NCBI GenBank assembly: GCA_027214385.1
Contig: JAPVXR010000007.1
Coordinates: 1-64,000, forward strand
DNA length: 64,000 nt
Direction of reading: 5' to 3'
Source: Cryomorphaceae bacterium 1068
GTDB taxonomy: Bacteria; Bacteroidota; Bacteroidia; Flavobacteriales_D; Cryomorphaceae
Each line of letters opens with the position of its first letter. Within the stretch, counting starts at the first letter, position 1. Under the pieces are notes generated by a model, which was given only the letters and a program-made list of their open reading frames with translations, was not told the origin of the DNA and made no database searches. The position numbers were made by a program, and so were the translations under genes. Of the stretch, positions 12,303 to 58,487 are shown piece after piece.

Positions 12303-12306
12303 TTTC

Positions 12307-15300
12307 TTAGAATCTAAGGTTTAATGCAAGATTGAAGCTCATTTCCTGTGGAGGAGTGAGGTATGTAATATTCGGACTTAGGTTCATGTCCGCTGCGTTC
12401 TCAAAGTCACGGGCAATCTCCGGATCCAGACCGTCGAAGTTTGTAAATGTCAAGAAGTTAGAAGCGCTAGCTGTAATTGAAGCACCTTTGAAATTTGCTG
12501 TACCCACATTGAAAGCAGGAACATTGTAAGTAACACTGAGTCTTCTTACGCGCAAGTAATCTCCGTCTTTGAGCCATTGTGTAGTGTTATTGTTAAAGGC
12601 ATTGTCCAATCCATAGTTTTCAACTCTTTGAGAAAGTCTCGCAAATTCGGCTTCATCACCTTCTTGCCTCCAGCGATCAAATACCTCAGTTCTCATGTTC
12701 CAGTTTGTAACAACTCCATTTTGTCTTTTGCTTGATGAGTCATAGATGTCACTACCAATGCTGAACACCATGACTAAACCTACGCTCCATCTGCCAAATT
12801 CAAATGTATTGGTAAGTCCACCTACTGCAACGGGTAGAACTCTTCCTACCGCTCTTCTGTCTGCCGGATCCCAGGTGTTGGTTGGATTTCCATTGATATC
12901 CTGGTAAACATTTCTTCCCGTTGTAGGATCAACACCTAAGAAAGGTACCAAGAAGTTGGTTCCGACAGGTTCACCAACCACTACGCGCGTATCGTTCGTT
13001 CCTCCGCTAATGGCATCTTCGCTGTAGCTTCCAATGTCTACAATTTCGTTGTAGTTATAGGCTATGTTGAAGTCTGTTCTCCATGTAAAACTTTCTCTAT
13101 CCATCATTACAGCTCCTAGTTCAAACTCAATACCTCTATTCACAATTTCACCTAGGTTATCCCACCAACCTTCGATTCCTGTGCTCGGTTGCGGAGTTAT
13201 TTCCAAGAGGACATCCGTAGTTTGTTTGTTGTAAAATGAAAGTGTTGTTGTGATTCGATCATCAAGGAATCCCATCTCTACGGCCACGTCAATTACGTTG
13301 GCTGTTTCCCATTTCAGATCAGGATTACCCAATACGTTCAAGAATAGAATATCTTCCCCGTTATAGCCTTCATTCTGTTGTGTGTAAAAACCATACTGAC
13401 GATAATTAGGAATATTTGCATTTCCTGTTATTCCCCATCCAGCGCGCAGTTTCATGAATGAAATTGTCTCATTTCCTTTGAGGAAATCTTCTTCTGACAT
13501 GATCCATCCGGCCGAAGCACTTGGGAAAAAGCCGAAACGATTGTTCTCTCCAAATCGCGATGATCCGTCCGCTCTAAGAGAGGCTTGAGCAAAGTACTTA
13601 TTGCTTCGAGAATAGTTCACACGAGCAAACCCTGAAATGAAATTGTAGACGCTTTTCGTATCATTCGGATTATCTCTTCTAAGACCACCATCTTCTTCTT
13701 CAGAGAATCCTCCATCAAGAAGCTCATCATTGTCATAAAAAGGACCATCGACCTCTACCCCTTCTCTGGATATTCTGGGCTTGAAAATAGTTCTTGATTC
13801 CTGATATTCGAACCCGGCCATGTAGGTAAACGAGTTCTTTTCATCCAAATCGTGAATGTAAGAAGTCGTAAAATTAGTGTTCCAATTGTTGGTATAGTTC
13901 TCCCAGCGTTCTGCCAGATTCTGCCGATCAGAATTACGCTCACCGTTCAGAAGCAATCTGTCTTGATACTTGTCGTCGGTAACGTTCATGTAGTCATATC
14001 CAAAGTAGGCTTTAACAAACATGTTTTTGATAGGACGGTACTCGAATGAGATGTTATTGATAGATCTAAATTCTCTGGTTCTCCAATCAGTCAATTCGCG
14101 TTGTCTAACCGGGTTAGAACCATCATCCCAGTAGTCACCCGGAAGATGGAGAATTTCTCCTTCTCCATTGAAAATAGTATCGGAGTGGAAGATCGGATAA
14201 ATAGGCAATGCCTCAGACATGGCAGCTCCTAGCCCACCGCTCCACGCGGCATCAACACGGTTATTAATCCCTTGACTCAGGCTTATGTTAGCACCAATAT
14301 CGAGTTGATCATTAATTTTGTAAGACGCATTTGTTCTGAGTGATGTTCTTTCGTAAGAGTTCCCAATAAGGTAGGAACCATTGTCATCATAACCTAGAGA
14401 GGCAAAAAGCTTCAGCTTCTTCGTTCCGTAATTCGTCGAAAAGTTATAGGCCTGTTTAAATCCGACTCCAATTGTTTCATCCACCCAATCGGTATCTGTT
14501 TGACGAGCTTGATCCCAAGAAATATTACCGGGAAGAGGAGCTGCTAATCCTACGTTGCCATCGTTTTCCCAAGCCTCTTGGTTGAGCTGCAGCCATTCTG
14601 ATGAATTAAGCATGTTGGGTCTCGCTGTAGGTAAGGAAATACCATGGCGTGTGTTCAAATTAAAATCCCAGCCACTACCTGAGCCAGACTTAGTTGTTAT
14701 CAAAATCACCCCATTAGCACCTCTGGAACCATAGATACCTGTAGCTGCAGCATCCTTAAGAATTTCGACGCTTTCTATGTCATTGGGGTTAATGGTGGCA
14801 AGAGGATTATTGTTCATACCACCTCTGTTTCCATTCAGGAAGTAATCTTGGGTAATGGGAATTCCATCAACCACATATAGTGGGTCTCCGGAGGCTGAGA
14901 TAGACGCTACCCCTCTAACGCGAATCACCGAAGCCGAACCGGCAAGGCCACTACCTTGTGTTACCTGAACACCAGCTGCTTTTCCCTGAAGGGCTGCCTC
15001 GAAACTCGGTGTCGGTATGTCCGTTAGTTCTTTGGAACCCACTTTCTCAATGGATCCCGTTACCTCTCGTTTTCTCTGCACACCATAACCGACAACGACG
15101 AACTCTTCAAGCGTTTCAGAGTCTACCTCCATATCTCTATTTATGGTAACTGTTCCAGTCGGAGGAACGTTAATCGTTTCTCTTGCCTCGGTATAACCGA
15201 TAAAGGAAAACACCAAGATCTGCTCTCCCACGGGAGCGTTTTTGATTTCATACTTTCCATCGAGGTCAGTAGCATCTCCTTGAGTGGTTCCGTCAATTCT

Positions 15301-15432
15301 TACCGTCACACCTGGCATTGGAATTCCGTTTTCATCGTTCACAACACCGGCTATATTCTGCGCTTGAAGCACAGCGGTAGAAATGAGAAGGAAGAAAAGC
15401 GCCCATAGATAACGGGACATTTGCATCTTCAT
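12307..15432 (-). CDS. susC: SusC/RagA-family TonB-dependent outer-membrane transporter
   Basis: About 1041 residues. After a signal peptide (MKMQMSRYLWALFFLLISTA) comes a carboxypeptidase-regulatory-like domain (IAGVVNDENGIPMPGVTV...), a TonB-box-like VVVGYGVQRK segment, a plug domain (about 120-240, with DPLYVVDGIPI and ILKDAAATGIYGSRGANGVI) and a 22-strand-type barrel ending in LALNLRF. It imports oligosaccharides across the outer membrane using TonB energy. The ATG at 15432 starts exactly at the signal peptide; an upstream in-frame ATG at 15516 would add 28 non-signal residues. A candidate operator and a -7-like box lie 36-59 bp upstream. Confidence 0.93.
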   Translation of the reverse strand: MKMQMSRYLWALFFLLISTAVLQAQNIAGVVNDENGIPMPGVTVRIDGTTQGDATDLDGKYEIKNAPVGEQILVFSFIGYTEARETINVPPTGTVTINRDMEVDSETLEEFVVVGYGVQRKREVTGSIEKVGSKELTDIPTPSFEAALQGKAAGVQVTQGSGLAGSASVIRVRGVASISASGDPLYVVDGIPITQDYFLNGNRGGMNNNPLATINPNDIESVEILKDAAATGIYGSRGANGVILITTKSGSGSGWDFNLNTRHGISLPTARPNMLNSSEWLQLNQEAWENDGNVGLAAPLPGNISWDQARQTDTDWVDETIGVGFKQAYNFSTNYGTKKLKLFASLGYDDNGSYLIGNSYERTSLRTNASYKINDQLDIGANISLSQGINNRVDAAWSGGLGAAMSEALPIYPIFHSDTIFNGEGEILHLPGDYWDDGSNPVRQRELTDWRTREFRSINNISFEYRPIKNMFVKAYFGYDYMNVTDDKYQDRLLLNGERNSDRQNLAERWENYTNNWNTNFTTSYIHDLDEKNSFTYMAGFEYQESRTIFKPRISREGVEVDGPFYDNDELLDGGFSEEEDGGLRRDNPNDTKSVYNFISGFARVNYSRSNKYFAQASLRADGSSRFGENNRFGFFPSASAGWIMSEEDFLKGNETISFMKLRAGWGITGNANIPNYRQYGFYTQQNEGYNGEDILFLNVLGNPDLKWETANVIDVAVEMGFLDDRITTTLSFYNKQTTDVLLEITPQPSTGIEGWWDNLGEIVNRGIEFELGAVMMDRESFTWRTDFNIAYNYNEIVDIGSYSEDAISGGTNDTRVVVGEPVGTNFLVPFLGVDPTTGRNVYQDINGNPTNTWDPADRRAVGRVLPVAVGGLTNTFEFGRWSVGLVMVFSIGSDIYDSSSKRQNGVVTNWNMRTEVFDRWRQEGDEAEFARLSQRVENYGLDNAFNNNTTQWLKDGDYLRVRRLSVTYNVPAFNVGTANFKGASITASASNFLTFTNFDGLDPEIARDFENAADMNLSPNITYLTPPQEMSFNLALNLRF

Positions 15433-15476
15433 AGTTGAGCAGTTAAAATGAGTGGTTAAATCTAAAAAAAATCTAT

Positions 15477-15491
15477 GTGTCACTTGTACAC
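15477..15491. promoter_or_regulatory. Candidate alpha-glucan operator upstream of susC
   Basis: On the gene strand the site reads GTGT-ACAAG-TGACAC, 45 bp before the susC ATG and directly in front of a -7-like box (TAGATTTT, minus strand 15475-15468). Its position inside the promoter suits a repressor. It matches GTGT-N5-TKACAC, also found at 18387, 27205 and 40644. Confidence 0.6.
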
Positions 15492-15515
15492 GTTTGTTCA
15501 AACTGATAAAAATCA

Positions 15516-18353
15516 TTATTTGGAATCGACCATAACCTTCGCTGTGGCTACGCCCTTTTCAGTGCGAAGCTGCATAAGGTATAATCCACTTGCAACTTTA
15601 GCGCCTGCATTGTCTCTTCCGTTCCATCGCTGCATGTGATTTCCCTGAGCAAAATTGCCCGACGCTAAGTTTCTCACAACACGTCCCTGAAGGTCAACTA
15701 CAGCCATATCTACTTGAGCAGACTGGTCAAGAGTGAAAGACAATTGAGTGAAATCTGAAAATGGATTTGGATAAGGAACGTCCAAAGAGCCCCCAACAAA
15801 GTCAGCCTCTTCTATACCTAATGACAGATCGGGAGTTTCAAGCTCTACGGTCGTATAAATTCGGTATTCTCCGGGCTCGAGCAAGAATGGGTTATTCAAA
15901 TCATTCTCCACAATGGATTCCCCCGTGAAGTAGTCGTACCAGGTTCCCGTTTGCGTAAAGCCGGGAACAATACTTATCGGCGTCACTTCAAAATTTGCAA
16001 TGATCACCACATCCATTTCAGGGTGTTGAATAATCAAGCGCTTACCTAGTCCGCTGACATCCCAAGTGTAATTATCACTTCGGAAAGCTTCATTCTCTAA
16101 TTTCAATTTGATCAAAGCGGCAGTTACTTTGAAGAGTCTTTCACGCGCGGGCACCTCTTGGTAATCCCAGCGGATAGGTTTAGGATTGGTTCGACATCCT
16201 TCTTCAATTGTGACACCATCTTCACATAAGTTGATGCTGAACTCATACCCCAGCTCACCGAATTGCCAGATCATTTTGGGTCCGCGGTGCGGGTATAGAA
16301 AAGCAGCTACAGCTTCTTGACGTGCAAGCGCAGTATTCAAGTCGGTGACATTATAATCTCCGCTGCTATTTCCGAAAGCGAGATTCTTGAACATTAATCG
16401 TTCTTCGTCATGGCTTTCAGCATAGCTCACCAGGTTTGGCTGCCCCCATCCTCTCACTTGGTAATCGGCCCAATTTAAGTTGGCATTGCTAGAGTACCCC
16501 ATTGAGTTCTGGTTGTACTGCTCGGTCATTTTACCCCAGAGCATAAAGTCGTTATTGGCTAAAACCGTTTCTTCGGGATTATCTCCAAGATGCTCCAGAA
16601 TGAGGTAAACCTCATCGTCGTATGAGTAAATTTCATCTCGGATTCGCGTCCAATGATCCACTCGATCTTGATCGTATTGGTTCCATTGCCCCACGTTACT
16701 ACTGAAGTTTTGGGTAAACCCTTTGCTCAAGTCGAATCGGAAACCGTCAAATTTGTACTCTTCAATCCAGAAGCGGAGATTTCGATTGACGAATGCCTGC
16801 GTATGAGGAGAGTCGTGGTTGTAATCGTAACCCACGTTGAAAGGGTGCTGTGCTTGAACATTAAACCAAGGATTCTCAGCAGTCGGAGGTCCCGCCGCAC
16901 CATTTTCAGAATACATTCTCACCTGAGGATTCTGACCAAAAGAGTGGTTAAATACCTGATCCAGAATCACGGCAATTCCTCTTTGGTGACACTCGTCAAT
17001 AAACTCTTTCAGCTTATCGGCAGTTCCGTAGTACTTGTCAGGAGCGAAATAAAACATCGGGTTGTAGCCCCAACTAATGTTTCCTTCGAATTCCATGATG
17101 GGCATAAGTTGGATCGCATTGACACCCAATCTTTCGAAGTACGTTAAGGTATCAATAAGGCTTTGGTAGGAGTGGTCTTCCACGAAGTCTCTAACCAAGA
17201 GTTCGTAGATCACTAATTGATCAGATGGCGGGCGCTGAAAATCTTCCACCTGCCAATCGTATGGCTCTTGAGCAGTTTGCAGCACCCCCACGATTTCAGA
17301 GGTGAGGCCCTCAGGATATTCAATTAAACCAGGGTAGGTTTCTTCAGAGATAAACGGATCATTCCATGGATCGAGAATTTTCTCGCAATAAACATCAGCT
17401 ACTCGGAGATCTTCCTGATCGATGCTATATTGAAAACGATATTCCTGGCCTGCGACCAGGTTTGGTATTTCCAACCAGTATCGATCACCTTCAGGAGTAA
17501 CATTCATAAAGTAATCAGGATTGAACTCCCAATTGTTAAAGTCTCCAAGTACGTAAACGAAATCTTTATTTGGCGCAAAGAGCTGCAGCACAACGGTATT
17601 GTCATCAATGTAATTGATACCGTCTATTACGCCCGGAGGAGGCGCAGACACAACGGGATCAGATTGAATGATCACATATACTGAATCGGTAAGGGTTTCA
17701 ATTCCATTGTCAGCTTCCATCCACAACCATTGCTGGCCGGTGGGCAGCACGGTCAAATCAATCGAAGTCTCTATAGAAGAAACGCCGGATTCAGAAGCTA
17801 CTATGTCGTCATTGAGATAGAGTGTAAGGTCAGCATTGGCATTCGACTCCCCTAAAAAAGTATAATCAGTTACCGGGTCTAGAAAAATTTCAGGTGCGGA
17901 TGGAGTAGTAATTCCTGCTGAGAACTCACCTGCGGGATACACATCAATGAATATATCTGAGCCGTCAGCATTCTTGCCTTCGAGCGAACCATTCGTATTT
18001 CGAAATACGAAAGACAACTGTTCGATATTTTCATCGCCAGTGAGGCCATAAAAATCAATGATATTGTAACTGATCTGATGGGTGTTTGGCCCTACAAAAG
18101 TCATAACCACATTGGGATCGGCCGTACCCCAATTCCCTTGGACATTCTGCCATCCATTCAATCCCTCGATGATCACTCCCGTGTGTGCGTATACAGGGAC
18201 AACACCCACGAGCTGACCATTTCCTTCTGTGGCATGAAATGTCACGGTGACATCATCATTAATGGTCGGGAAAGGTGGGTCAATAGTTACAACCTGAGCA
18301 AAAACTCCTAGATTAAAAACAAAAAACCCAAATGCGTAAATCCACTTCTTCAT
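15516..18353 (-). CDS. Secreted GH13 alpha-amylase-family enzyme with CBM48-like and T9SS domains
   Basis: A 945-residue modular protein: signal peptide, two N-terminal beta-sandwich segments (about 20-235), a CBM48/E-set-like domain (about 240-340, VYVLGDFNNWEF), a GH13 barrel (about 370-770) and a C-terminal T9SS type A sorting domain (VPYPNPFSDF onward). All four GH13 regions are visible: DQVFNH, GFRFDLSKG (nucleophile Asp), LILEHLG (acid Glu) and AESHDEE. CBM48 plus the ESHDEE form suggests a branching-enzyme or pullulanase-like subfamily rather than a plain amylase. It is exported and probably surface-attached, cutting alpha-glucan outside the cell. It lies upstream of susC but has its own candidate operator and promoter. 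Confidence 0.88.
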   Translation of the reverse strand: MKKWIYAFGFFVFNLGVFAQVVTIDPPFPTINDDVTVTFHATEGNGQLVGVVPVYAHTGVIIEGLNGWQNVQGNWGTADPNVVMTFVGPNTHQISYNIIDFYGLTGDENIEQLSFVFRNTNGSLEGKNADGSDIFIDVYPAGEFSAGITTPSAPEIFLDPVTDYTFLGESNANADLTLYLNDDIVASESGVSSIETSIDLTVLPTGQQWLWMEADNGIETLTDSVYVIIQSDPVVSAPPPGVIDGINYIDDNTVVLQLFAPNKDFVYVLGDFNNWEFNPDYFMNVTPEGDRYWLEIPNLVAGQEYRFQYSIDQEDLRVADVYCEKILDPWNDPFISEETYPGLIEYPEGLTSEIVGVLQTAQEPYDWQVEDFQRPPSDQLVIYELLVRDFVEDHSYQSLIDTLTYFERLGVNAIQLMPIMEFEGNISWGYNPMFYFAPDKYYGTADKLKEFIDECHQRGIAVILDQVFNHSFGQNPQVRMYSENGAAGPPTAENPWFNVQAQHPFNVGYDYNHDSPHTQAFVNRNLRFWIEEYKFDGFRFDLSKGFTQNFSSNVGQWNQYDQDRVDHWTRIRDEIYSYDDEVYLILEHLGDNPEETVLANNDFMLWGKMTEQYNQNSMGYSSNANLNWADYQVRGWGQPNLVSYAESHDEERLMFKNLAFGNSSGDYNVTDLNTALARQEAVAAFLYPHRGPKMIWQFGELGYEFSINLCEDGVTIEEGCRTNPKPIRWDYQEVPARERLFKVTAALIKLKLENEAFRSDNYTWDVSGLGKRLIIQHPEMDVVIIANFEVTPISIVPGFTQTGTWYDYFTGESIVENDLNNPFLLEPGEYRIYTTVELETPDLSLGIEEADFVGGSLDVPYPNPFSDFTQLSFTLDQSAQVDMAVVDLQGRVVRNLASGNFAQGNHMQRWNGRDNAGAKVASGLYLMQLRTEKGVATAKVMVDSK

Positions 18354-18386
18354 ATCCTGATCGATTGTATCTGTTTTTAGTAATTA

Positions 18387-18401
18387 GTGTCAAAAATACA
18401 C
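18387..18401. promoter_or_regulatory. Candidate alpha-glucan operator overlapping the GH13 promoter
   Basis: On the gene strand: GTGT-ATTTT-TGACAC, 34 bp before the ATG. A perfect Bacteroidota -7 box, TATTTTTG (minus strand, 18398-18391), lies inside the palindrome, and a TTG occurs 21 bp upstream of it. A protein bound here would block RNA polymerase directly. Confidence 0.65.
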
Positions 18402-18479
18402 TTTAGGATGTTAACTCAGCAATTCCAACGAAAAAAAATTTCACCAAATGAGAATCCTATGATGTAGTATTAATTGTGG

Positions 18480-20696
18480 TTACTGTTTCACAAACCGCTG
18501 AACGCGGTTGTTAAAATGAACCATATAGACGCCATTCGGGAGAGGAGTGGTATCGAAAAACTCACCTGTACCGCGGGCTAGGCTTTTGCCTTCTATCGAT
18601 GTTATTCTATAACTCACCTTGGTTCCAAAGAAAAGAAGTGTGGATACCGGATTGGGATAAACCGGGTTTTCACTAAGGTCTAAATCAGAAATACTGAGCA
18701 ATTCCGAATTGGAGGCTCCCGGGGTCGAAGTCGAAAAAAGAATCCACGGGATTTCCGCGTCGTCTTCTCGGCCATAACTGAAGTCTGTTGGAAGCGTTGG
18801 GAAATTTACCCCATCTACCCATCGGACTCCATCTGCTTCAGCTTTAAAAAGAAGGACTTCTTCGCCTCCGGCACTCAATCGAAAGTTGGCATGAAATGGT
18901 CCGTCATCTAAATCCCTATCGGCCCAAACCAGAAGAAACTCTCCGGGCTGCAAGGTGTATTCAGGGAAGTGCCATTTGGCGGTAGAACTTGAGTTATCGC
19001 TCAAAAAGTAATCTCCCAATTCCACTGTGACACTCGTCGGATTATAGATCTCAATCCAGTCTTCAAAGTCTCCTACCTCATCGGAAATGGTTAAGTCATT
19101 GGAGCTCATTAGCTCATTGATCACGAGGCTCGAAGGCTCAGAATTGTAGATATGCCGCGCATCACAATAGACGGTTCTATTCGCTCCTGATCCTGTGGAC
19201 AAACTCACATTATAAGACAGTTCGTCGAAATCCATGGGCAGTTCTATTTCAAAAACTACGGAGTTCATCGGGGTTGAGACAGACTGGGTTTCCTGCTGGA
19301 TTCCGTTCACCGTAGAGTTCAATTCAGCTGAAAGACAGTCAGGTCCTTCAAGAAAAACCTCAATTCTGAAAAGGGAAGGAAATTGATCAAAGTCCTCCTT
19401 TACTCTGCTTGGAATAGGAGCGATGTTTACAAACTCCAATTGATCAAGAGCAGAGTTTTTCCTAATCTCTGCAAACTCTAAGACGCCGTAATCGACATGG
19501 CCACCGGCACCATCATCCAGTGCGTTTAAAAAGTCACTAGCATCAAATCCCCAGTCCAAGGGACGATAAGGGTCTGCCAGAGCCGAAGCTTCAATAAACC
19601 CCTGCAGGCTTTCGATGTAGGTTTGATGTAGCGGTGTGAAGTAGTGATTCTGCAATAAATCGTCAATGTGGTAGGAGAATATATCTCGAAACTGATCGAT
19701 ATCCATGAGTCGATTGAACAATGGTCGGGTGGCCCCCGTTTGGCTCCAGGTATAAAGATTTCTATTCGACCAATTACGGTCTAGCCAATCTATCCCCCAT
19801 GTATTATCGGTATCATAAGGAATGTACTCAAATTGATCGGTGGTGGGGTTGTGGTACAGATAGAAGTTATTCTGATTGTAAATGTAGCCGTCCCAATTTC
19901 CCGTCAATACATCTATGGCCGCCACTTTGAGGTAACTGTATACATTGAAATAGTTATTGAGTCCGCACTCAAGGTCTTGGTTTGATGATTGGTTCAAGAA
20001 TCCGATGAACTCCGCCAAATCGGAATAATCGTCCAATTCGGTATTGGTCTTCAATTCATAGGTTCGGGTTCCCCAAGGAGCTACTTTGTAGTTGTCGGGA
20101 TTAGTTCCTAAATAACCCAAATCGGCAGGGTAACTGCATTTATACAGGTTCCCGCCTTGGCTTCCGAAGCGCAATTCCGCAAATTCCTCGTCGATATGCT
20201 CGGTGTTGAGGTAAAGTCCATAATACTCGTCATTGATATAAACCTCCACGTGATTTGATCGAGGAGCAGGCACTCCAAGATCATGGAATAGATCCCAACA
20301 GAGTCTGGATCGCATCATGGCGGGATCATTCGTCTCAGCATTCAGGTTGAGCTTTTCCAAGCCAAAGTATTTCTGGCCTTGCACAAATGTGTTGAAGGAT
20401 ACTTTAAAGGATTTCTTGATTTTGTCACGAGATGTATTTCCGCGAAAGCGAAAACCCACCAAGGAAATCACATCGGTTTGCCCCTCTGCCTCGAAGGCAA
20501 ATGAGGCGGGGTATTCATGATCGGAGTACCAGTTGTCTTCGAGGTAGAGATCCTCTAAGCTGTCAACGTCGATGGTAATATAGACCTTCGGGATTTCACT
20601 GGAAGTGTAGACATGTCCGTTCTCAGGCAGGTTTGGCTGAGCCAGAATCTGCAAAGCGGAAAGAAGGTATAGGCTAAAAATGAAAAGTCTTTTCAA
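18480..20696 (-). CDS. Secreted CotH-kinase protein with lamin-tail and T9SS domains
   Basis: A 738-residue protein: signal peptide (ending ILAQ), a CotH kinase domain (about 30-360), a lamin-tail domain (about 525-640, INELMSSNDLTISDEVGDF..WIEIYNP) and a short T9SS sorting tail (ENPVYPNPVSTLLFFG). CotH landmarks are FRFRGNTSRDKIKKSFKV, EKLNLNAETNDPAMMRSRL, YGLYLNTEHIDE and the metal-binding YDTDNTWGID. CotH proteins are atypical kinases that phosphorylate spore-coat proteins in Bacillus; secreted Bacteroidota versions have no proven substrate. Its start overlaps the esterase stop by 4 bp, so it is co-transcribed with the esterase. Confidence 0.88.
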   Translation of the reverse strand: MKRLFIFSLYLLSALQILAQPNLPENGHVYTSSEIPKVYITIDVDSLEDLYLEDNWYSDHEYPASFAFEAEGQTDVISLVGFRFRGNTSRDKIKKSFKVSFNTFVQGQKYFGLEKLNLNAETNDPAMMRSRLCWDLFHDLGVPAPRSNHVEVYINDEYYGLYLNTEHIDEEFAELRFGSQGGNLYKCSYPADLGYLGTNPDNYKVAPWGTRTYELKTNTELDDYSDLAEFIGFLNQSSNQDLECGLNNYFNVYSYLKVAAIDVLTGNWDGYIYNQNNFYLYHNPTTDQFEYIPYDTDNTWGIDWLDRNWSNRNLYTWSQTGATRPLFNRLMDIDQFRDIFSYHIDDLLQNHYFTPLHQTYIESLQGFIEASALADPYRPLDWGFDASDFLNALDDGAGGHVDYGVLEFAEIRKNSALDQLEFVNIAPIPSRVKEDFDQFPSLFRIEVFLEGPDCLSAELNSTVNGIQQETQSVSTPMNSVVFEIELPMDFDELSYNVSLSTGSGANRTVYCDARHIYNSEPSSLVINELMSSNDLTISDEVGDFEDWIEIYNPTSVTVELGDYFLSDNSSSTAKWHFPEYTLQPGEFLLVWADRDLDDGPFHANFRLSAGGEEVLLFKAEADGVRWVDGVNFPTLPTDFSYGREDDAEIPWILFSTSTPGASNSELLSISDLDLSENPVYPNPVSTLLFFGTKVSYRITSIEGKSLARGTGEFFDTTPLPNGVYMVHFNNRVQRFVKQ

Positions 20697-33428: not shown

Positions 33429-35807
33429 TTAAAGGGTAAGAATTTCAAATGAGACAGCAGGAAGCGCAATTGTGATCGTTTTTCCGTCGAGGGTAAATTG
33501 ATTTCCAAAATTGGCTTTGAATCCCTCAATATTGTAGTGAACGGGAACTTCAACGGTCACTGTTTTTTCTTGTCGAGAGCTATTGATGAACAGAACAGCC
33601 GTTTGATCAAAGTAATTTCGGAGCACGGCCATTTCCTTATTGGAAATACTGAGTACTTCGGTGTCTCCGTAAAGCAATGCCATATTGCCCTTGCGCAGGT
33701 TTGCCAACGTAGTCACCTCCTGAAGCATGGCTTGCTCCCTTTCGGTCAGGTCGTCGCCAAACTGCATCATGCGGCGGTTATCGGGATCGCCCGCTCCAAT
33801 CATTCCGTACTCGTCGCCGTAGTAAATTACGGGAATGCCAGGAGAGAAAAAGTTAAACGCTTGTAGCAAACCGAGTCGATTGAAACCGATGGTATCTCCA
33901 CGAGTAATGTCGCGGGTCCAGCCTGCCAATTTCGGGTCTTCGCCAAAATCAACCGTTCCATCCGCGTAAGAGATAAAGCGCGTGCGGTCTTGGTTTCCGG
34001 AGATGTTTCCCATCAGATGATGATCGCCGTAACCCAGTAAGCTCTGACCAAATACTCGATTCAAATCTTCGAGACTCCCATTGTCTTTTCCGAAAGCTGA
34101 TACCTCAGCGTCGTAGAGGTTAAAGTCGAATTGTGCATCGAGCATTCCCGAACTGATATAGCTTCCGATCAAATCGGGATTCCCATAGGTCTCCCCAATT
34201 TGGTAGATATTTCGGTCTTCGGGAACCACCACGCGGTACTTTAGTTTTCGCGTAAGCTCACGCCAAAAGCTCAGCGGAATGTGCTTGGTGGCATCGTGAC
34301 GGAAACCGTCAATCGGAAATTCTTCGAACCAGTAAAGCGCGCTATCAGTCATGGCGGCTGTCACATCATCGCGACGCAAATCCAGCGTTGGCATAAAAGT
34401 ATCGAACCAAGTGGTGAGGCGGTACTCGTCCCAGCGCTCAGTATTCAGGGATCCGTCGGGAAGATATAGCTCTGTTGCCCAATCAGGGTGTAGCTGATAA
34501 ACGGGATGTTCTTGATGAACGTGATTGGCCACGTAGTCGAGAATCACATTCATGTCTTCCTTATGGGCCTCGTCGATCAGCGAATGGAGCACGGAGTCAT
34601 TGCCAAATCGCATATCTACCGCCGAGGAAGAGATGGGCCAATACCCATGGTATCCCGAAAATTTCGTTCTGACTCCACCTTTGTCCCAAAGACCGTAGGC
34701 GCCGAGCGGATTCTGCACAATTGGCGAAAGCCAAACGGTGTTCATTCCCAATTTTTGAAAATAACCTTCTTCAATTTTTTGATTCACACCCGCTAAGTCG
34801 CCCCCGTAGTAATTGGCAATCGGTAAAATCTCTGGATCATCGACAGGGATATCGTTGGATGCTTGGGCATTCACGAAACGGTCGACCATCATGAAATACA
34901 TGGAATAGGTATGCTTATCCGTGCGATTCAAAGCACTGGCCTCCATAACGGGCATGCCCTTTTCGAGGGGAATGAGTACATCGTTGGAACGCTGCTCACC
35001 GTCTGAAGCAAAAACGCGAATATAGCTTCGCGCCGATTCAGCCGCTGCATCGGGAATTGGAAAGCTTAGTCGATCTCCGCGTCGAGCATACCAGCTATCG
35101 CCGAGTACTTGGTTCTCCCATAAAATCAAAGGAGGGGTGAGTTCTTCAGGAAAATGTAAAACAATGCTATCTCCCAAATATCCGTAAGTCGAAATATGGG
35201 GGCGATCAGCTGTGGCTCCAACTCTAAAGGCGGAGTTGAACCCACCTGAACCATTATCCTTTTTATCAGGATTGGTCGGGTCGAGCATTTCCACGCCATC
35301 TTGAACGACTTGGTACTCGTACAAACCCGGATTCAAAATGAGCGTGTCGTACCACACTCCATTTTGTTCTGAAAGCATTCCGGCCTTGTAGTTCCAGCCG
35401 TTGAAATTTCCTTTCAGACCTATTTCCTGCGGATTTCCGGTAGGAGGATCGTAGGTAAAAACGTGAGCTTGTTTGCGGCTTTTGAAAACGGGGATTTCAT
35501 ACTCCACTCCTTCGTAGGAGGCAGAAAGAAACGTGACAGGATCGTCTGAATTGAAATTCTCGACCGTCAAGATTCCTTCATTGAGATCGAAGTCTACGGC
35601 TACTCCGAAGCTTACCGAATCTACTTTTTCAGGATTCTCGAAATAGTCGCCCAAGTGGATTTCGGTTTGACCAAAATCCAGCCGAATAGGGCTAGCTATG
35701 CCAACAATGGCTTTGCCGTTCTCAACGGTTGGCTTTACATCTTTTTGAGAAGCACAGCCAAATGCAGCAGCTCCCACGAGCAGAATCAGACACTTTATTT
35801 TATTCAT
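33429..35807 (-). CDS. GH13 alpha-amylase-family lipoprotein with E-set/CBM48-like domain, 792 aa
   Basis: Lipobox AAFGC (Cys about residue 18). Residues about 30-110 are Ig-like, about 110-195 a glycogen-binding E-set (YDPPTGNPQEIGLKGNFNGWNY), about 300-690 the GH13 barrel, then a C-terminal beta domain. Catalytic regions: DYVANHVHQEHP, GFRHDATKHIP (nucleophile Asp), QIGETYGN (acid Glu) and SGNQDRTRF. Region IV has Gln in place of the usual His of the NHD motif, which is unusual and may mark a distinct specificity. Its start overlaps the maltose phosphorylase gene by 4 bp. Confidence 0.88.
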   Translation of the reverse strand: MNKIKCLILLVGAAAFGCASQKDVKPTVENGKAIVGIASPIRLDFGQTEIHLGDYFENPEKVDSVSFGVAVDFDLNEGILTVENFNSDDPVTFLSASYEGVEYEIPVFKSRKQAHVFTYDPPTGNPQEIGLKGNFNGWNYKAGMLSEQNGVWYDTLILNPGLYEYQVVQDGVEMLDPTNPDKKDNGSGGFNSAFRVGATADRPHISTYGYLGDSIVLHFPEELTPPLILWENQVLGDSWYARRGDRLSFPIPDAAAESARSYIRVFASDGEQRSNDVLIPLEKGMPVMEASALNRTDKHTYSMYFMMVDRFVNAQASNDIPVDDPEILPIANYYGGDLAGVNQKIEEGYFQKLGMNTVWLSPIVQNPLGAYGLWDKGGVRTKFSGYHGYWPISSSAVDMRFGNDSVLHSLIDEAHKEDMNVILDYVANHVHQEHPVYQLHPDWATELYLPDGSLNTERWDEYRLTTWFDTFMPTLDLRRDDVTAAMTDSALYWFEEFPIDGFRHDATKHIPLSFWRELTRKLKYRVVVPEDRNIYQIGETYGNPDLIGSYISSGMLDAQFDFNLYDAEVSAFGKDNGSLEDLNRVFGQSLLGYGDHHLMGNISGNQDRTRFISYADGTVDFGEDPKLAGWTRDITRGDTIGFNRLGLLQAFNFFSPGIPVIYYGDEYGMIGAGDPDNRRMMQFGDDLTEREQAMLQEVTTLANLRKGNMALLYGDTEVLSISNKEMAVLRNYFDQTAVLFINSSRQEKTVTVEVPVHYNIEGFKANFGNQFTLDGKTITIALPAVSFEILTL

Positions 35808-38107
35808 CTTCCGATGGAAATGGTTTCATTTTCAGGAACGGAAACTGATTTACCGTAAACCAAAATGTCCAAACTACCACCTGATACATTCTTCACACTC
35901 ACTTCTTCGGGCTTCACCGTAATGCTAAGAACCGTTTCACGATACACGAGATTAAAGCGGTAGGCATTCCAATTTTTTGGGATCATTGGATCAAGGCTCA
36001 AGATACCGTCTTTCACTCTTTTTCCACCAAAACCTTCAACTACGGCCATCCAGGTACCCGCCATTGATGTAATGTGAAGTCCTTCATCCGCTTCGTGGTT
36101 GTAGTCGTCTAAGTCGAGACGAGCGGTACGCAAGTACATCTCGTAAGCCTTGTCTTCCATACCCAGCTTAGAGGCGAGTACTACGTGAACGCAAGGTGAA
36201 AGCGAGCTTTCATGAACCGTTCGCGGTTCGTAGTACAAGAAGTTTTCGCGGATGGTGGCTTCGTCGAAGTCTTCTTCGAAAAAGTACATTCCTTGTAGTA
36301 CATCGGCTTGTTTGATGAAAACAGATCTTAGGATTCTATCCCAAGACCAGTGCTGATTGATGGGTCTTTCGGATTTATCCAAGTCATCAGCTACGCGGTC
36401 TTCTTTGTCCAAGAATCCGTCTTGCTGAAGATAGAGTTTGGTTCCTTCTTTCTTGGGCTCGTACATCTTTTCGCAGATGTCTGACCACTTCTCGAGTTCT
36501 TTATCATCGAAGGAAGTTTTGGAAACAAAATCACTCCAGTACGAGGCATCTTGGCGAGCGTATGCTATGCTTTCTGAAGCATAGCTCATTGCCCATTTAG
36601 CGATGTAATTTGTGTACCAGTTGTTGTTGACGTTGTTTTCGTATTCGTTTGGACCGGTAACGCCGAGCATCACGTATTGATTCTTGGATTTGCTCCAGTT
36701 GACGCGCTGCGCCCAGAATCGAGCGATTCCAACAAGTACTTCCAAACCACCCTCTTTGAGGTAGTCGCGGTCGCCAGTGTGGCGGATGTAATTGTAAATG
36801 GCGTAAGCAATCGCACCGTTTCGGTGAATTTCTTCAAAAGTGATTTCCCACTCATTGTGGCACTCTTCACCATTCATGGTTACCATTGGGTAAAGGGCAG
36901 CTCCTTTTGAAAAACCTAATTTTTCGGCGTTTTCAATGGCCTTTTCCAGCTGACGGTAGCGGTAAAGCAGCAATTGCTTGGCTACTTCACTTCCAGATGT
37001 GAGCATGTAAAAAGGCAGACAGTATGCTTCTGTATCCCAATAAGTAGACCCACCGTATTTCTCTCCTGTGAATCCTTTCGGGCCAATGTTCAGTCGCGGA
37101 TCTTCGCCAGTGTAGGTTTGATTGAGCTGGAAGATGTTGAAGCGAATGGCTTGTTGCGCAGATACATCCCCATCGATTACGATGTCGTTCATCTCCCATC
37201 GCTTCTCCCAGGCATCTTTTTGCTCTTGAAGCATTTTCTCATAGCCCTTATCAGCGGCTTGAGCCAATGCTTCTTTCGCTCGTTCAGTCAGTTTAGTCTT
37301 GGGGTGATTTTCTGAAGAGATATTGCAAGCAAATTTATAAACCACAATCTCCTCACCTTGATTGGCTTCGAGACTCAAAAGGTTTTCGACATACTTGGCT
37401 CTTTCTACTTGATTGCTCGTAAAATCTACATTCCCACCATCTTTCGTGACAAAAATCTTCTGTCCCGTACAAACCTGAAAATCCAGTTTTTTAGTGGCCA
37501 AAGTGACGTATGCTTCGGAGTTTGAAGTGCTTTTGTCAACTTCAGCCCAAAACTTTTCGTCGTAGTTGGAATCTTGGTTGATAATGTCTCCATCGATGTA
37601 GACACGGAAATCAATTTTCCCTGAAAAGTTGAGTGGAGTCAAACTGTAGCGGATTACAGCTACCTCATCATCTACCATGCTGAGAAAGCGTTTCGCATCG
37701 ACTTGTACTTCGGCGCCATTTTTCAATTTGGCTTTAAAGCTTCTGTGCAAAGTACCTTCCTGCATATTGAGTTCGCGACGAAAGTCGCTCACCTCAGCCA
37801 CGTTTAGGTCTAAAGCCTCGCCTTTTACAATAGGACAAAGCCCAATCCAATTGGCAGCATTAAGGACTTTAGCGAAGTATTCAGGGTATCCGTTTTTCCA
37901 CCAACCTACTCGGGTTTTATCGGGATAGTAGACTCCTGCCACGTAATTTCCCTGTAGGGTTTCTCCTGTGTAATCTTCTTCAAAATTGGCCCTTTGGCCC
38001 ATTCGACCGTTTCCTAAACTAAAGATGCTTTCTGATGATTGTTGCATCTCAGGGTGAAAACCTTCTTCAACGATTAGCCAAGGATTTTCTTCGTAATGTT
38101 TTTTCAT
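35804..38107 (-). CDS. GH65 maltose phosphorylase
   Basis: A 767-residue cytoplasmic enzyme (no signal peptide) with the GH65 order: N-terminal beta-sandwich (about 1-270), linker helices, an (alpha/alpha)6 barrel (about 310-680) and a small C-terminal sheet. The catalytic acid lies in VTGPNEYENNVNNNWYTN; other landmarks are GGSTYWDTEAYCLPFY, EECHNEWEITFEEIHRNGA and TVHESSLSPCVH. It splits maltose with phosphate into glucose and beta-glucose-1-phosphate. Kojibiose or trehalose phosphorylase is possible from sequence alone, but adjacent pgmB and the amylases favour maltose. It lies 2 bp after pgmB. Confidence 0.9.
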   Translation of the reverse strand: MKKHYEENPWLIVEEGFHPEMQQSSESIFSLGNGRMGQRANFEEDYTGETLQGNYVAGVYYPDKTRVGWWKNGYPEYFAKVLNAANWIGLCPIVKGEALDLNVAEVSDFRRELNMQEGTLHRSFKAKLKNGAEVQVDAKRFLSMVDDEVAVIRYSLTPLNFSGKIDFRVYIDGDIINQDSNYDEKFWAEVDKSTSNSEAYVTLATKKLDFQVCTGQKIFVTKDGGNVDFTSNQVERAKYVENLLSLEANQGEEIVVYKFACNISSENHPKTKLTERAKEALAQAADKGYEKMLQEQKDAWEKRWEMNDIVIDGDVSAQQAIRFNIFQLNQTYTGEDPRLNIGPKGFTGEKYGGSTYWDTEAYCLPFYMLTSGSEVAKQLLLYRYRQLEKAIENAEKLGFSKGAALYPMVTMNGEECHNEWEITFEEIHRNGAIAYAIYNYIRHTGDRDYLKEGGLEVLVGIARFWAQRVNWSKSKNQYVMLGVTGPNEYENNVNNNWYTNYIAKWAMSYASESIAYARQDASYWSDFVSKTSFDDKELEKWSDICEKMYEPKKEGTKLYLQQDGFLDKEDRVADDLDKSERPINQHWSWDRILRSVFIKQADVLQGMYFFEEDFDEATIRENFLYYEPRTVHESSLSPCVHVVLASKLGMEDKAYEMYLRTARLDLDDYNHEADEGLHITSMAGTWMAVVEGFGGKRVKDGILSLDPMIPKNWNAYRFNLVYRETVLSITVKPEEVSVKNVSGGSLDILVYGKSVSVPENETISIGR

Positions 38108-54409: not shown

Positions 54410-54970
54410 ATGCGTCGAATCACAATAATTTTGATCGTGCTCACCATAATTTCTTGCGGAACAGAATCTCCTCTTGATCAAAAATTGACAATGCTCGACA
54501 AAACTGGAGTTGTCTTGGACACGGTGTTCTCGAGTCACACAGGCACAGCATTGATCTTCTTGTCACCCGAATGTCCGCTTTGCCAGAACTACAGTGTAAC
54601 TATTGATCGCATCCAAGAAGACTTTGATGGAAAAGACATCGCGTTTTACGGTGTCGTCAGCGGAACTTACTACTCAGACGCAGACATCAAAGGCTTTCTA
54701 ATTAGGTACAAACTTGACCTACCGGTCATACTTGATCCTGAACTAGCCCTTGCAAATCATTATGAAGCTGAGATAACCCCTGAAGCATTCTTGATCGCAA
54801 AAAATGGAGAACCACAGTATCAGGGAGCGATAGACAACTGGGCAATTTCGCTGGGACAGAAGCGACAGACCATAACTGAGCGATACCTCGAAAATGCACT
54901 TACCGCCCACTTGACGGGAAGTGAAATCAATCCTAAAAAAACAAAGGCTGTAGGATGTTTTATAGAATAG
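54410..54970 (+). CDS. Redoxin-domain (thioredoxin-like) lipoprotein
   Basis: A 186-residue protein with lipobox LTIISC (Cys about 16) and a thioredoxin fold of the AhpC/TSA-redoxin type: LIFLSPECPLCQNYSVTIDRI carries CPLC in place of CxxC/CGPC, followed by LPVILDPELALANHY and the cis-Pro-like EITPEAFLIAKNGEPQYQGAID. It probably acts on disulfides or peroxides in the periplasm. The stop overlaps the start of the cytochrome/monooxygenase-like gene by 16 bp, so the two are coupled. Confidence 0.83.
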   Translation: MRRITIILIVLTIISCGTESPLDQKLTMLDKTGVVLDTVFSSHTGTALIFLSPECPLCQNYSVTIDRIQEDFDGKDIAFYGVVSGTYYSDADIKGFLIRYKLDLPVILDPELALANHYEAEITPEAFLIAKNGEPQYQGAIDNWAISLGQKRQTITERYLENALTAHLTGSEINPKKTKAVGCFIE

Positions 54971-56349
54971 CCCTTTTTCTGATCATCGGCGGATTGGTTT
55001 CATGTAGCTCAAGCACTGAAAGGACGGAGACCAATATAGCTGCAGTTGAGCCGACTGACACGATTAAGATCAGCAAAGACCTGACCTTTTGGGAAGATGC
55101 CGCACCGATAATTTTTGAGAATTGTACTCCTTGTCATCACCAAAACGGTGCAGGGCCATTTTCCTTAACCGATTTTGATGCGGTTAAAAAGAGAACGAGG
55201 ACCATTCGACAAGTAGTAGCTGATGGCTACATGCCACCATGGCCGGCTGATCCTGAGTTCAGCCGTTTCAAAGGAGAGAAAATCCTTTCCAAAAAGGAGA
55301 AATTGACTCTGGTCAATTGGATTGATCAAGGAGCTCCTGAAGGAATGAAAACTGAGGTTATTCCTCAACCAGAAATATTCACTGCAGAAAATCCCGAAAA
55401 GCCCGATGTGATCATACCCTATTCTGACACTGTGCCGATTCCGGGACAAAATCTTGATCTTTTTAGAATAGCGAAAATTCCAATTAACCTTCCGAGAGAC
55501 ACTGTTATCAAAGCTATTCACTTCAGGCCGGGAAACAAACAATTGGTGCACCATGTCAATGGTCACCTCATCAATTATGAAAAAGGGATGAAGGAAGATT
55601 CCCGACAGGGAGAGTGGATAATTGATGCTGAAAAAATGAATTCTTTGGAAGCTTACAGACTTATGAAAATTGCAAATGACGACGGTTCCTACCCGGTCAT
55701 GAGGGTTTCGGCTTTCAACTATTTACCGGGTGTAGAACCTCTGCAATATCCCGAAGGCATCGGAGGACTTTTCATTAATGAAAATGCAGCATTCTTGCTA
55801 AATACCTTGCATTACGGGCCATCACCTTTGGACACTTTCGACTTCAGTCAGATTGAAATTTATTTTGCCGAAAAGCGTCCCGAAAGACCCGTATCCGAGC
55901 TACATATGGGCACACAAGGTATCACTAAGATAGAGCCGGAATTTATTTTGCCCGCAGGTGTAGTCAGCACTTTCACCACTAAATATCGATTGCCTGATAC
56001 CATATCTGTTTTAACGGTGAATCCACACATGCACTTGCTAGGCCGCGAATTCACCGCCTATGCTTATTCGGAAGACAAGTCGGATACCATTCCATTGATC
56101 CGAATCCCTGAATGGGACTTCAGGTGGCAGTACTTTTATACTTACGAGAAAGTACAGGTTTTACCAAAAGGATACACCATTCAAGTGGTGGCCGTTTTTG
56201 ACAATACCATTGATAATCCTTTTAATCCAAATATCCCGCCTAAGACGCTAAGCGAGGCAGGGAAAAATATGAAGACAACGGATGAGATGTTTCAGTTTTT
56301 CATAAATTACATCCCCTATCAAAAAGGAGACGAAGGGATAGAACTCTAA
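54955..56349 (+). CDS. Cytochrome c fused to copper type II monooxygenase-like domain
   Basis: A 464-residue lipoprotein (lipobox GLVSC). Residues about 40-125 form a cytochrome c domain with NCTPCHHQNGAGPFSL and a Met/Pro-rich region DGYMPPWPADP. Residues about 140-450 resemble copper type II ascorbate-dependent monooxygenases (PHM-like): LVHHVNGHLINYE supplies a His pair, NPHMHLLGREF the H-x-H copper pair and TTDEMFQFFINY a Met ligand candidate. This suggests oxidation chemistry with the attached heme as electron source. The substrate is unknown. It is co-transcribed with the redoxin gene and followed after 10 bp by a small secreted protein gene. Confidence 0.8.
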   Translation: MFYRIALFLIIGGLVSCSSSTERTETNIAAVEPTDTIKISKDLTFWEDAAPIIFENCTPCHHQNGAGPFSLTDFDAVKKRTRTIRQVVADGYMPPWPADPEFSRFKGEKILSKKEKLTLVNWIDQGAPEGMKTEVIPQPEIFTAENPEKPDVIIPYSDTVPIPGQNLDLFRIAKIPINLPRDTVIKAIHFRPGNKQLVHHVNGHLINYEKGMKEDSRQGEWIIDAEKMNSLEAYRLMKIANDDGSYPVMRVSAFNYLPGVEPLQYPEGIGGLFINENAAFLLNTLHYGPSPLDTFDFSQIEIYFAEKRPERPVSELHMGTQGITKIEPEFILPAGVVSTFTTKYRLPDTISVLTVNPHMHLLGREFTAYAYSEDKSDTIPLIRIPEWDFRWQYFYTYEKVQVLPKGYTIQVVAVFDNTIDNPFNPNIPPKTLSEAGKNMKTTDEMFQFFINYIPYQKGDEGIEL

Positions 56350-56359
56350 AATACCGGAT

Positions 56360-56725
56360 ATGAAAATTAAGATATGCCTTACCCTCTTTACTCTTTGCTT
56401 TTCGCTACTAGGTTTTTCTCAAGAAGCCGATAATCGCGCGAATGCAGCGGTACAAGAGGAAATGAAAATGTACCATAAAGAGCTGAATCTTTCAGCAGAG
56501 CAGCTTTATCAAATCACCCAATTACTGGGAGAAAAGATCAAAAAGAGCGAGGTGATTGTAGCTGAAATTGAGGGGCTCAAAAGTCAACTCGACAATATTG
56601 ATGTCTCAACGGACAAGCAAATTATGAGCGTTCTGAATGAAGATCAGAGACTGATCATGCAAGAAAAGCTTGAAGAGAAATTGACCAAGCAACAAGAAGA
56701 GTTTAAGAACTCATTAACGGATTAG
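56360..56725 (+). CDS. Small secreted helical protein, Spy/CpxP-like
   Basis: A 121-residue protein with a signal peptide (MKIKICLTLFTLCFSLLGFSQ) and an all-helical, charged mature part (EEMKMYHKELNLSAEQLYQI, VLNEDQRLIMQEKLEEKL). The pattern of two L-x-x-x-Q/E-R-type helices recalls LTXXQ/Spy periplasmic chaperones, including the 'LNLSAEQLYQITQLL' and 'LNEDQRLIMQEKL' halves. Assignment is tentative. It is the third gene of the redoxin/cytochrome operon and overlaps the convergent lipoprotein gene by 4 bp. Confidence 0.6.
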   Translation: MKIKICLTLFTLCFSLLGFSQEADNRANAAVQEEMKMYHKELNLSAEQLYQITQLLGEKIKKSEVIVAEIEGLKSQLDNIDVSTDKQIMSVLNEDQRLIMQEKLEEKLTKQQEEFKNSLTD

Positions 56726-57405
56726 TCCAAGTCATTGGCTACCCAGCGCAGGTTATCGATTTCGACACCGGTACTGCGCTCACCTTCGAATTCCATTCCG
56801 CATACCACCTGAACTCGAGCCATCATAATCTGCTCAAATTCTCGTATTGTGATATTTACAGGAGTGAAGGTTGAATCATTGAATGAATGGGTTGAGATAT
56901 TCACATACTCACTTCGTCGGTAGGGCTCACAACCACCATTAGCAGCAACTTTCCCGCTGATGAAGACTTTGATAAAGTCAGGTGATCCATCCTCAGTATC
57001 AGTCACACGTGCGTCAAATTGGAGGCTACCCTCAGCGAAATCACGCGCGTCTTGTTCATTGATCAAAGTGAAATAAGAGCGATGCGTAAAACCACCGCCT
57101 GTTCCCAAGTAGAGCGTTTCGGCTACCGTAGCAGAATCCCTGGCTTCTTCCATCACCTCCGTGATCCCTTCACAAACGTTTAAGCTATAAGCTCCTTCAA
57201 CCAAATCACCATTCCATCCTCCTACTAATCCGGCTTGCCAAATCATCTGTTCTGCTTGGTTGAATTGACAAGTACCATCATCTTTTAAAGCGCTGGCATC
57301 GTAATTCACCGCAATTGGATCGGTACATCCTTCTTGTTTGGGGTCTTTGTTGCATGAAGTCAGCAACAAGAGAGCGAAAATCGGTATGTAAATTTTTAAC
57401 TGCAT
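56722..57405 (-). CDS. Lipoprotein of unknown function with CTDP-NYD motif
   Basis: A 227-residue lipoprotein (lipobox LLTSC, Cys about 18). Directly after the anchor comes GCTDPIAVNYDASALKDDGTC, a short Cys-containing motif found singly or repeated in many Bacteroidota surface proteins. The rest is beta-rich with no recognised family. It is a lone minus-strand gene between two plus-strand groups, and oxyR diverges from it 116 bp away. Confidence 0.65.
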   Translation of the reverse strand: MQLKIYIPIFALLLLTSCNKDPKQEGCTDPIAVNYDASALKDDGTCQFNQAEQMIWQAGLVGGWNGDLVEGAYSLNVCEGITEVMEEARDSATVAETLYLGTGGGFTHRSYFTLINEQDARDFAEGSLQFDARVTDTEDGSPDFIKVFISGKVAANGGCEPYRRSEYVNISTHSFNDSTFTPVNITIREFEQIMMARVQVVCGMEFEGERSTGVEIDNLRWVANDLD

Positions 57406-57521: not shown

Positions 57522-58487
57522 ATGACACTAACCCAATTAAAATACGTTCTCGCAGTAGATACCTACCGCCATTTTGCCGCCGCTGCCGAAAGCTGCTTCG
57601 TGACTCAACCCACCCTTAGTATGCAAATTAATAAGCTCGAAAAAGAGCTGGATGTTTTGATTTTTGATCGGAATAAACATCCCGTTGAGCCGACTGTCAT
57701 TGGTGCTCAAATCATCAAGCAGGCCCGCACCACTATGCAAGAGGCGAAGAGAATAGAGGAGTTAGTCAAGGGAAGTAAAGGACAGGTATCAGGAGAATTC
57801 AGACTAGGCATTATACCTACGGTGAGTACCAATTTACTTCCTCGTTTCCTTCGAGTAGTTATGGAAAAGTACCCGGAGATTGAGCTAAAAATTGAAGAGC
57901 TACAGACCGAGCAGATTTTAGAAAAACTCGATCGTGATCAGATTGATGCGGGCATTCTTGCAACACCGTTGGACAAGACAGGAATTATCGAAAAACCACT
58001 ATACTACGAACCATTCATGGCTTATGTACCAAAGGGACATCGTTTGGAAAACGAAGACTTCGTGCTTCATTCAGAGTTAAGGTTGAGCGATATGCTACTG
58101 CTTAAAAACGGACATTGCTTCAGAGACAGTGTGATAAATCTGTGTGCATCTGCTTTTCCGGATGACCATAGCAACCACAAAACACTCGAATTTCAGAGCG
58201 GAAACTTTGAAACCCTCATTCGTCTGGCGAACAATGGATTTGGAATGACGCTACTCCCATACCTGATGGCACTGGATTTAGGTGAAGAAGAAAGGCAATT
58301 TATCAAACCAATCGAACACCCGCAGCCAACGAGAGAGATAAGTATGATCTACAGTAAAGTGCAGCTGAAAATTAGTATCATCGACTTGCTTGCAGAGGAG
58401 ATTCAGGCCCAGCTGCCTAAAAAACTTCTCTCACCTCAAGCAGAGACTGTGGTGAATCCCAAGATTGATAAAAAGTTAGCCGGCTAA
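57522..58487 (+). CDS. oxyR: OxyR-type LysR-family peroxide regulator
   Basis: A 321-residue LysR regulator: winged helix-turn-helix (about 1-60, HFAAAAESCFVTQPTLSMQI), linker helix and sensor domain (about 90-300). The redox pair of E. coli OxyR is conserved exactly in spacing and numbering: Cys199 and Cys208 in NGHCFRDSVINLCAS. This supports a true hydrogen-peroxide sensor that activates antioxidant genes. It heads a plus-strand group with small membrane proteins: the zinc-ribbon gene begins one base after the oxyR stop. No katG or ahpC is adjacent; the di-heme peroxidase gene is about 9 kb away. Confidence 0.94.
   Translation: MTLTQLKYVLAVDTYRHFAAAAESCFVTQPTLSMQINKLEKELDVLIFDRNKHPVEPTVIGAQIIKQARTTMQEAKRIEELVKGSKGQVSGEFRLGIIPTVSTNLLPRFLRVVMEKYPEIELKIEELQTEQILEKLDRDQIDAGILATPLDKTGIIEKPLYYEPFMAYVPKGHRLENEDFVLHSELRLSDMLLLKNGHCFRDSVINLCASAFPDDHSNHKTLEFQSGNFETLIRLANNGFGMTLLPYLMALDLGEEERQFIKPIEHPQPTREISMIYSKVQLKISIIDLLAEEIQAQLPKKLLSPQAETVVNPKIDKKLAG

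Follow-up and report, generated by a model that had tools for sequence, protein, structure and literature searches.

How could a bacterium supply electrons to a copper monooxygenase of the type that animals reduce with ascorbate? Peptidylglycine hydroxylating monooxygenase (PHM) and dopamine beta-hydroxylase (DBH) are textbook animal enzymes that depend on ascorbate; both of their coppers are reduced before O2 is activated, with ascorbate as the donor in animals. The window analysed here, 64,000 nucleotides from the start of contig JAPVXR010000007.1 of Cryomorphaceae bacterium 1068, raises this question with three plus-strand ORFs (Table 1). They encode a redoxin lipoprotein, a 464-aa lipoprotein that joins a c-type cytochrome region to a PHM-like region (hereafter called the oxygenase), and a small exported protein. 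Signal peptides and lipoboxes were identified by eye. A divergent Na+/H+ antiporter gene flanks the ORFs on one side and a convergent lipoprotein gene on the other. The source assembly (4.3 Mb) contains one copy of the 464-aa protein.

Table 1. Features of the redoxin-oxygenase locus, in positions of the window.
Feature	Position	Strand	Basis
Redoxin lipoprotein, 186 aa	54410..54970	+	ORF, Pfam, predicted thioredoxin fold of 2ywi/2cvb type
Redoxin Cys55 codon	54572-54574	+	
Redoxin Cys183 codon	54956-54958	+	
Redoxin/oxygenase gene overlap, 16 nt	54955..54970	+	ORF coordinates
Cytochrome c - PHM-like lipoprotein, 464 aa	54955..56349	+	ORF, Pfam, profile search, predicted fold
c-type cytochrome region, residues ~38-130	55066..55344	+	CxxCH, Met93
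CxxCH (Cys57, Cys60, His61)	55123-55137	+	
Met93 of MPPW	55231-55233	+	
PHM/DBH-fold region, residues 147-459	55393..56331	+	Profile alignment, fold
His199-His200	55549-55554	+	
His286	55810-55812	+	
His358-x-His360	56026-56034	+	
Met445	56287-56289	+	
Small exported helical protein, 121 aa	56360..56725	+	ORF; optional neighbour

The Pfam family Cu2_monoox_C matches the oxygenase marginally (23.2 bits, cut-off 23), and the cytochrome match falls below its threshold (19 bits, cut-off 27). A phmmer search with the single sequence found neither PHM nor DBH; a profile built from 13 relatives reached human DBH with E=2e-8 and PHM with E=3.7e-7. The AlphaFold2 model of the oxygenase, computed from 59 sequences (pLDDT 87.9, pTM 0.82), returned PHM or DBH at every one of ranks 1-30 in Foldseek. 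In VIA-align, all 26 PHM/DBH rows scored Z 14.4-17.4, including DBH 4zel (Z 17.4, 285 aligned, rmsd 3.9) and PHM 1sdw (Z 16.4, 255 aligned, rmsd 3.8), and the next unrelated row scored 7.9. According to the model, the second domain of the protein is of the two-domain PHM/DBH fold.

Ligand conservation was followed in an alignment of 137 proteins, the window protein and 136 relatives; relatives and loci were collected by similarity to the window protein or to its relatives, so the fractions are biased. In an HMM alignment to PHM (1opm), the HH, HY and HxH motifs fall at His107/108, His172 and His242/244 (residue numbering by an offset of 44, counted by hand). The CuH ligands are kept in 136/137 (H199 and H200) and 137/137 proteins (H286), the CuM ligands in 137/137 (H358 and H360) and 136/137 (M445). 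Of the heme motif, C57 and C60 are kept in 135/137 and H61 in 136/137, with M93 present in 134/137. All exceptions trace to three rows cut at a contig end (L012, L101 and L131) and to L009, which has a gap inside the cytochrome. M445 is assigned as the putative CuM methionine, equivalent to Met314, by its invariance and position rather than by a residue-level alignment with PHM, and we infer that Met93 is the axial heme ligand. E444, W391 and Q392 are invariant in all 137 rows, and the window protein has no cysteine in its PHM part. The original prediction had described a cytochrome c fused to a PHM-like copper domain and had named two observations that would speak against this, loss of the copper ligands in homologs and a different fold for the second domain. 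Neither was found: all six ligands are kept wherever the sequence is complete, only PHM and DBH reach high Z, and the heme motif agrees.

The redoxin is a true partner of the oxygenase, and the pairing is conserved far beyond chance, as expected from the earlier claim that the two belong together. In 59 of 137 loci a redoxin ORF adjoins the oxygenase, on its upstream side in 54 and on its downstream side in 5; in 9 loci the two are fused, and in 9 more the redoxin lies elsewhere nearby (8 on the same strand, 1 on the opposite strand); 60 loci show no redoxin in the available stretch, partly owing to contig ends. The commonest other neighbour cluster occurred in just 14 of the loci collected at that stage. 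Full-length single-chain redoxin-cytochrome-PHM proteins were found in 9 of 199 genomes of one other family. In the fused chain the redoxin Gly-Cys motif is followed by a short linker and then the cytochrome; the 599-aa example in L149 scores above the cut-off for Pfam Redoxin and just below it for Cu2_monoox_C. Similar chains may also occur in Planctomycetota and Acidobacteriota. On a FastTree tree of the oxygenase, untailed redoxin-adjacent rows are clustered, requiring 17 changes where shuffles give 43.6; the fused rows need 2 changes. The redoxin is nevertheless not obligatory, because genomes without a neighbouring redoxin often have only the general CNTCP-type or no strong match: whole-genome searches of 12 such genomes gave an operon-type redoxin in 2, only a CNTCP-type protein in 8 and no strong match in 2. 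In G547 and G549 a single small gene separates the operon-type redoxin from a second cytochrome-PHM gene.

The oxygenase ATG arises out of frame inside the redoxin Gly182-Cys183 codons (GGATGT). The invariant Gly182-Cys183 tail of the redoxin thus doubles as the oxygenase start, which ties the two reading frames together. This start device is found in 22 of the 54 upstream-adjacent loci; all 22 necessarily encode this Gly as GGA, compared with 6 of the 32 others. The arrangement suggests that translation of the redoxin and oxygenase is coupled.

The redoxin matches Pfam AhpC-TSA (32 bits, cut-off 26), and its profile aligns over the whole length with 2ywi, 2cvb and 3u5r (E=6.9e-30 to 1.4e-24), including the first Cys and the C-terminal Gly-Cys. 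Its model (pLDDT 94.5) has 2ywi/2cvb/3u5r and 2ywo as best fold matches, followed by other thioredoxin-like proteins including ResA. Across 77 rows, Cys55 is kept in 75 and Cys183 in 76, the remainder being gaps. This makes Cys55 and Cys183 the conserved pair, rather than the CxxC, whose Cys58 is kept in only 49/77. Peroxiredoxins carry a Thr or Ser three residues before the peroxidatic Cys; in the redoxin alignment the position three residues before Cys55 varies instead (S, A, V, D, C and others).

The third ORF starts 10 nt after the oxygenase stop. A three-gene operon with a Spy-like third protein had been proposed, and its ORFs are as described, with the 16-nt overlap between the first two; membership of the third gene in the unit is not supported. 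Among the 12 nearest loci, five have a small ORF after the oxygenase, and L002, of the same genus, has none, so the gene order is not conserved, and the three-gene operon was rejected as a unit. Sequence similarity to the third ORF was detected in 4 of 110 loci, including the window's own copy (L001). As to the label Spy-like, there is no Spy/CpxP (LTxxQ) match in Pfam or NCBIfam for the 121-aa protein, and none in Pfam for four positional counterparts. The convergent lipoprotein gene that follows (56722-57405) is without any Pfam family and recurs at this position in 8 loci of the window's family. Beyond it, at 57522-58487, lies a LysR-type regulator (HTH_1 and LysR_substrate), whose cysteine pattern we take to resemble that of OxyR. 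In five close loci (L001, L002, L004, L005 and L006) a similar LysR gene is likewise one gene away from the unit.

We consider it probable that the unit is an envelope-anchored, heme-fed, ascorbate-independent dicopper oxygenase of PHM/DBH fold with a two-cysteine redoxin helper and a non-peptide substrate. This reading builds on the gene overlap, the predicted fold, the conservation of ligands and heme motif, and the redoxin pairing and fusion; copper and heme binding, the electron path, monooxygenase chemistry and the redoxin's role would follow from them. The covalently attached c-type heme would replace ascorbate. Electrons from the periplasmic respiratory pool would reach heme c and pass, one at a time, to CuH (His199, His200, His286) and CuM (His358, His360, Met445), and O2 activated at CuM would hydroxylate a small non-peptide substrate. 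Heme-to-copper electron supply, which was part of the original prediction, is reasonable because the cytochrome and the PHM-like domain share a chain, the ligands are kept and the predicted fold is correct. By analogy, a one-electron c-type heme in the same chain would be the natural donor to the coppers. In PMC8981238, a c-type cytochrome domain is described as reducing bacterial copper monooxygenases (LPMOs), with less H2O2 than when ascorbate is used. The redoxin (Cys55, Cys183), made in step with the oxygenase, would assemble or protect the enzyme. We infer a role in assembly, in which the redoxin would either reduce the apocytochrome CxxCH through its thiols or load Cu(I).

Positions 284, 356, 447 and 449 of the substrate pocket differ among relatives. 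Position 356 corresponds to Arg240 of PHM, which anchors the peptide carboxylate. It is N in 80 rows, A and F in 14 each, V in 11, L in 6, W in 5, M in 3, G in 2, and T and I in one each, and Arg in none (0/137). A peptidylglycine substrate is therefore unlikely, and a peptide substrate in the PHM sense is not supported; for the oxidation of hydrocarbons, proposed alongside it, the evidence speaks neither for nor against. The fold and the full set of copper ligands would suit a true peptide alpha-hydroxylase (PHM proper) acting on peptides with a C-terminal glycine, but with Arg never found at the anchoring position, and with no PAL lyase gene noticed next to the unit, we regard this as extremely unlikely. 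The variable pocket would also fit a lipoprotein that keeps the PHM fold and ligands for non-catalytic copper or oxygen sensing, or for copper storage. This is quite improbable: a c-type heme with a conserved CxxCH and Met would be superfluous, and the invariance of both copper sites and of E444, W391 and Q392 better suits catalysis. Absence of the substrate-anchoring Arg, the redoxin partner and the recurrence in five close loci of a LysR regulator with presumably OxyR-like cysteines could alternatively mean that O2, peroxide or another small oxidant is reduced at the heme-fed copper sites and no organic substrate is hydroxylated, which would make the enzyme a protective oxidase or peroxide consumer with the redoxin in the same defence. 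However, the LysR gene was seen near the unit only in the window's own family and lies outside the operon, the peroxiredoxin Ser/Thr before the active Cys is not conserved, and the CuM and CuH ligands are exactly those of hydroxylases, so we think this unlikely.

A further alternative concerns only the helper and is compatible with a heme-fed hydroxylase. The redoxin could be a general cytochrome c maturation reductase (ResA/CcmG-like), paired with the oxygenase for heme maturation and without a role in turnover. ResA structures follow the 2ywi/2cvb group among the fold matches, and, with no cysteine in the PHM part, the mature chain offers no dithiol target other than the CxxCH. Yet nine relatives keep the redoxin permanently in the same chain, and Cys183 is kept while C58 is retained in just 49/77, unlike in ResA. 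We see this as a real possibility that falls somewhat short of an even chance.

The cytochrome c-PHM family is widespread in Bacteroidota. PF03712 scores above its cut-off in 26 of 296 genomes across the phylum and in 0 of 14 control genomes, and a phylum-wide search with the relatives' alignment listed matches above 280 bits in 21 of the 296, the source genome included. The 280-bit count was used because T9SS tails in the query alignment inflated the raw tally (220/296). The best 80 loci of a genome scan are all from Bacteroidota. A plasmid search with the window protein gave no match; the same search with L018 returned one PHM-like protein, from the actinobacterium Nonomuraea gerenzanensis, without the CxxCH cytochrome motif. 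It lies at L111:3728-4921, in a stretch without a listed gene. No description of a bacterial cytochrome c-PHM protein was found in the open-licence literature.

In many relatives of the same order the chain is extended at its C-terminus by a segment that matches a PDB T9SS sorting domain (best named entry E=0.0014); these proteins are probably exported to the cell surface. L013-L030 hold cytochrome c-PHM proteins with such T9SS-like tails; a surface-exposed heme would have no obvious source of electrons, a point against the heme-fed reading. In other loci a membrane protein resembling YihY/UPF0761 (by eye) directly precedes the oxygenase (L098:5019-7317, L109:4998-7296 and L039:5374-7266); in L039 the two share a reading frame, which may reflect a fusion or an assembly error. 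A second cytochrome c-PHM paralogue occurs with a redoxin and a 193-196 aa protein at L188:3126-5801 and L189:2000-4664. The small protein has no Pfam match (L188 copy), and both units sit behind apparent sulfur-mobilisation genes (SufS, SufE and SufT-like).

Some loci place the oxygenase among nutrient uptake genes. L142 has a SusC-SusD-redoxin-oxygenase-FG-GAP/UnbV-PAP2 cluster (Pfam); L143, L144 and L147 have similar neighbours (by eye), with no redoxin found in L147, and the oxygenases of L145, L146 and L148 lie near SusC/SusD-like genes (by eye). These neighbours weakly suggest a link between oxygenase and nutrient uptake. The window's own unit has no direct SusC/SusD-type neighbours, and the starch-type SusC/SusD and amylase cluster at 10.9-18.4 kb is too distant to count as part of the oxygenase locus. 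The starch-type locus as a whole spans 10881-20696 and 33429-38107, with SusC, SusD, amylases (one T9SS-tailed), GH65 and a CotH protein that bears a lamin-tail domain.

We tentatively propose, as an idea that may well prove too broad, an ascorbate-free PHM-type class in which heme c, dicopper core and redoxin would form a complete O2-activating module. It would be anchored as a lipoprotein or exported by T9SS, and in some lineages would oxidize a nutrient handled by SusC/SusD. Such a heme-bearing bacterial branch would show that respiratory electrons can drive a copper site of this type, and it points to an oxidation, so far uncharacterised, at the envelope of Bacteroidota. Its cysteine-free copper domain could help mechanistic studies of how electrons pass between the two coppers, a long-debated question.

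The redoxin has its closest counterparts in 2ywi, 2cvb and 3u5r, thioredoxin-like proteins of uncharacterised function that resemble it in sequence and fold over the whole length, including the C-terminal Gly-Cys. Unlike them, it is an exported lipoprotein coupled or fused to an oxygenase, and its family often has CPLC where they have CP[FY]V. The oxygenase shares with PHM and DBH the two-domain fold and the three-His CuH and His-Met type CuM ligands, but it is a bacterial lipoprotein with an attached c-type heme and would not be expected to require ascorbate. PHM contains disulfides and the anchoring Arg240, whereas the copper part here is without cysteines and the Arg is absent in 137/137 proteins. 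LPMOs are mononuclear copper enzymes of another fold. The CjX183 c-type cytochrome domain of Cellvibrio japonicus likewise takes the place of ascorbate in reducing a copper monooxygenase; there, CjX183, a domain of Cbp2D, is on a different protein from the LPMOs that were tested (PMC8981238), whereas here cytochrome and copper domain form one chain.
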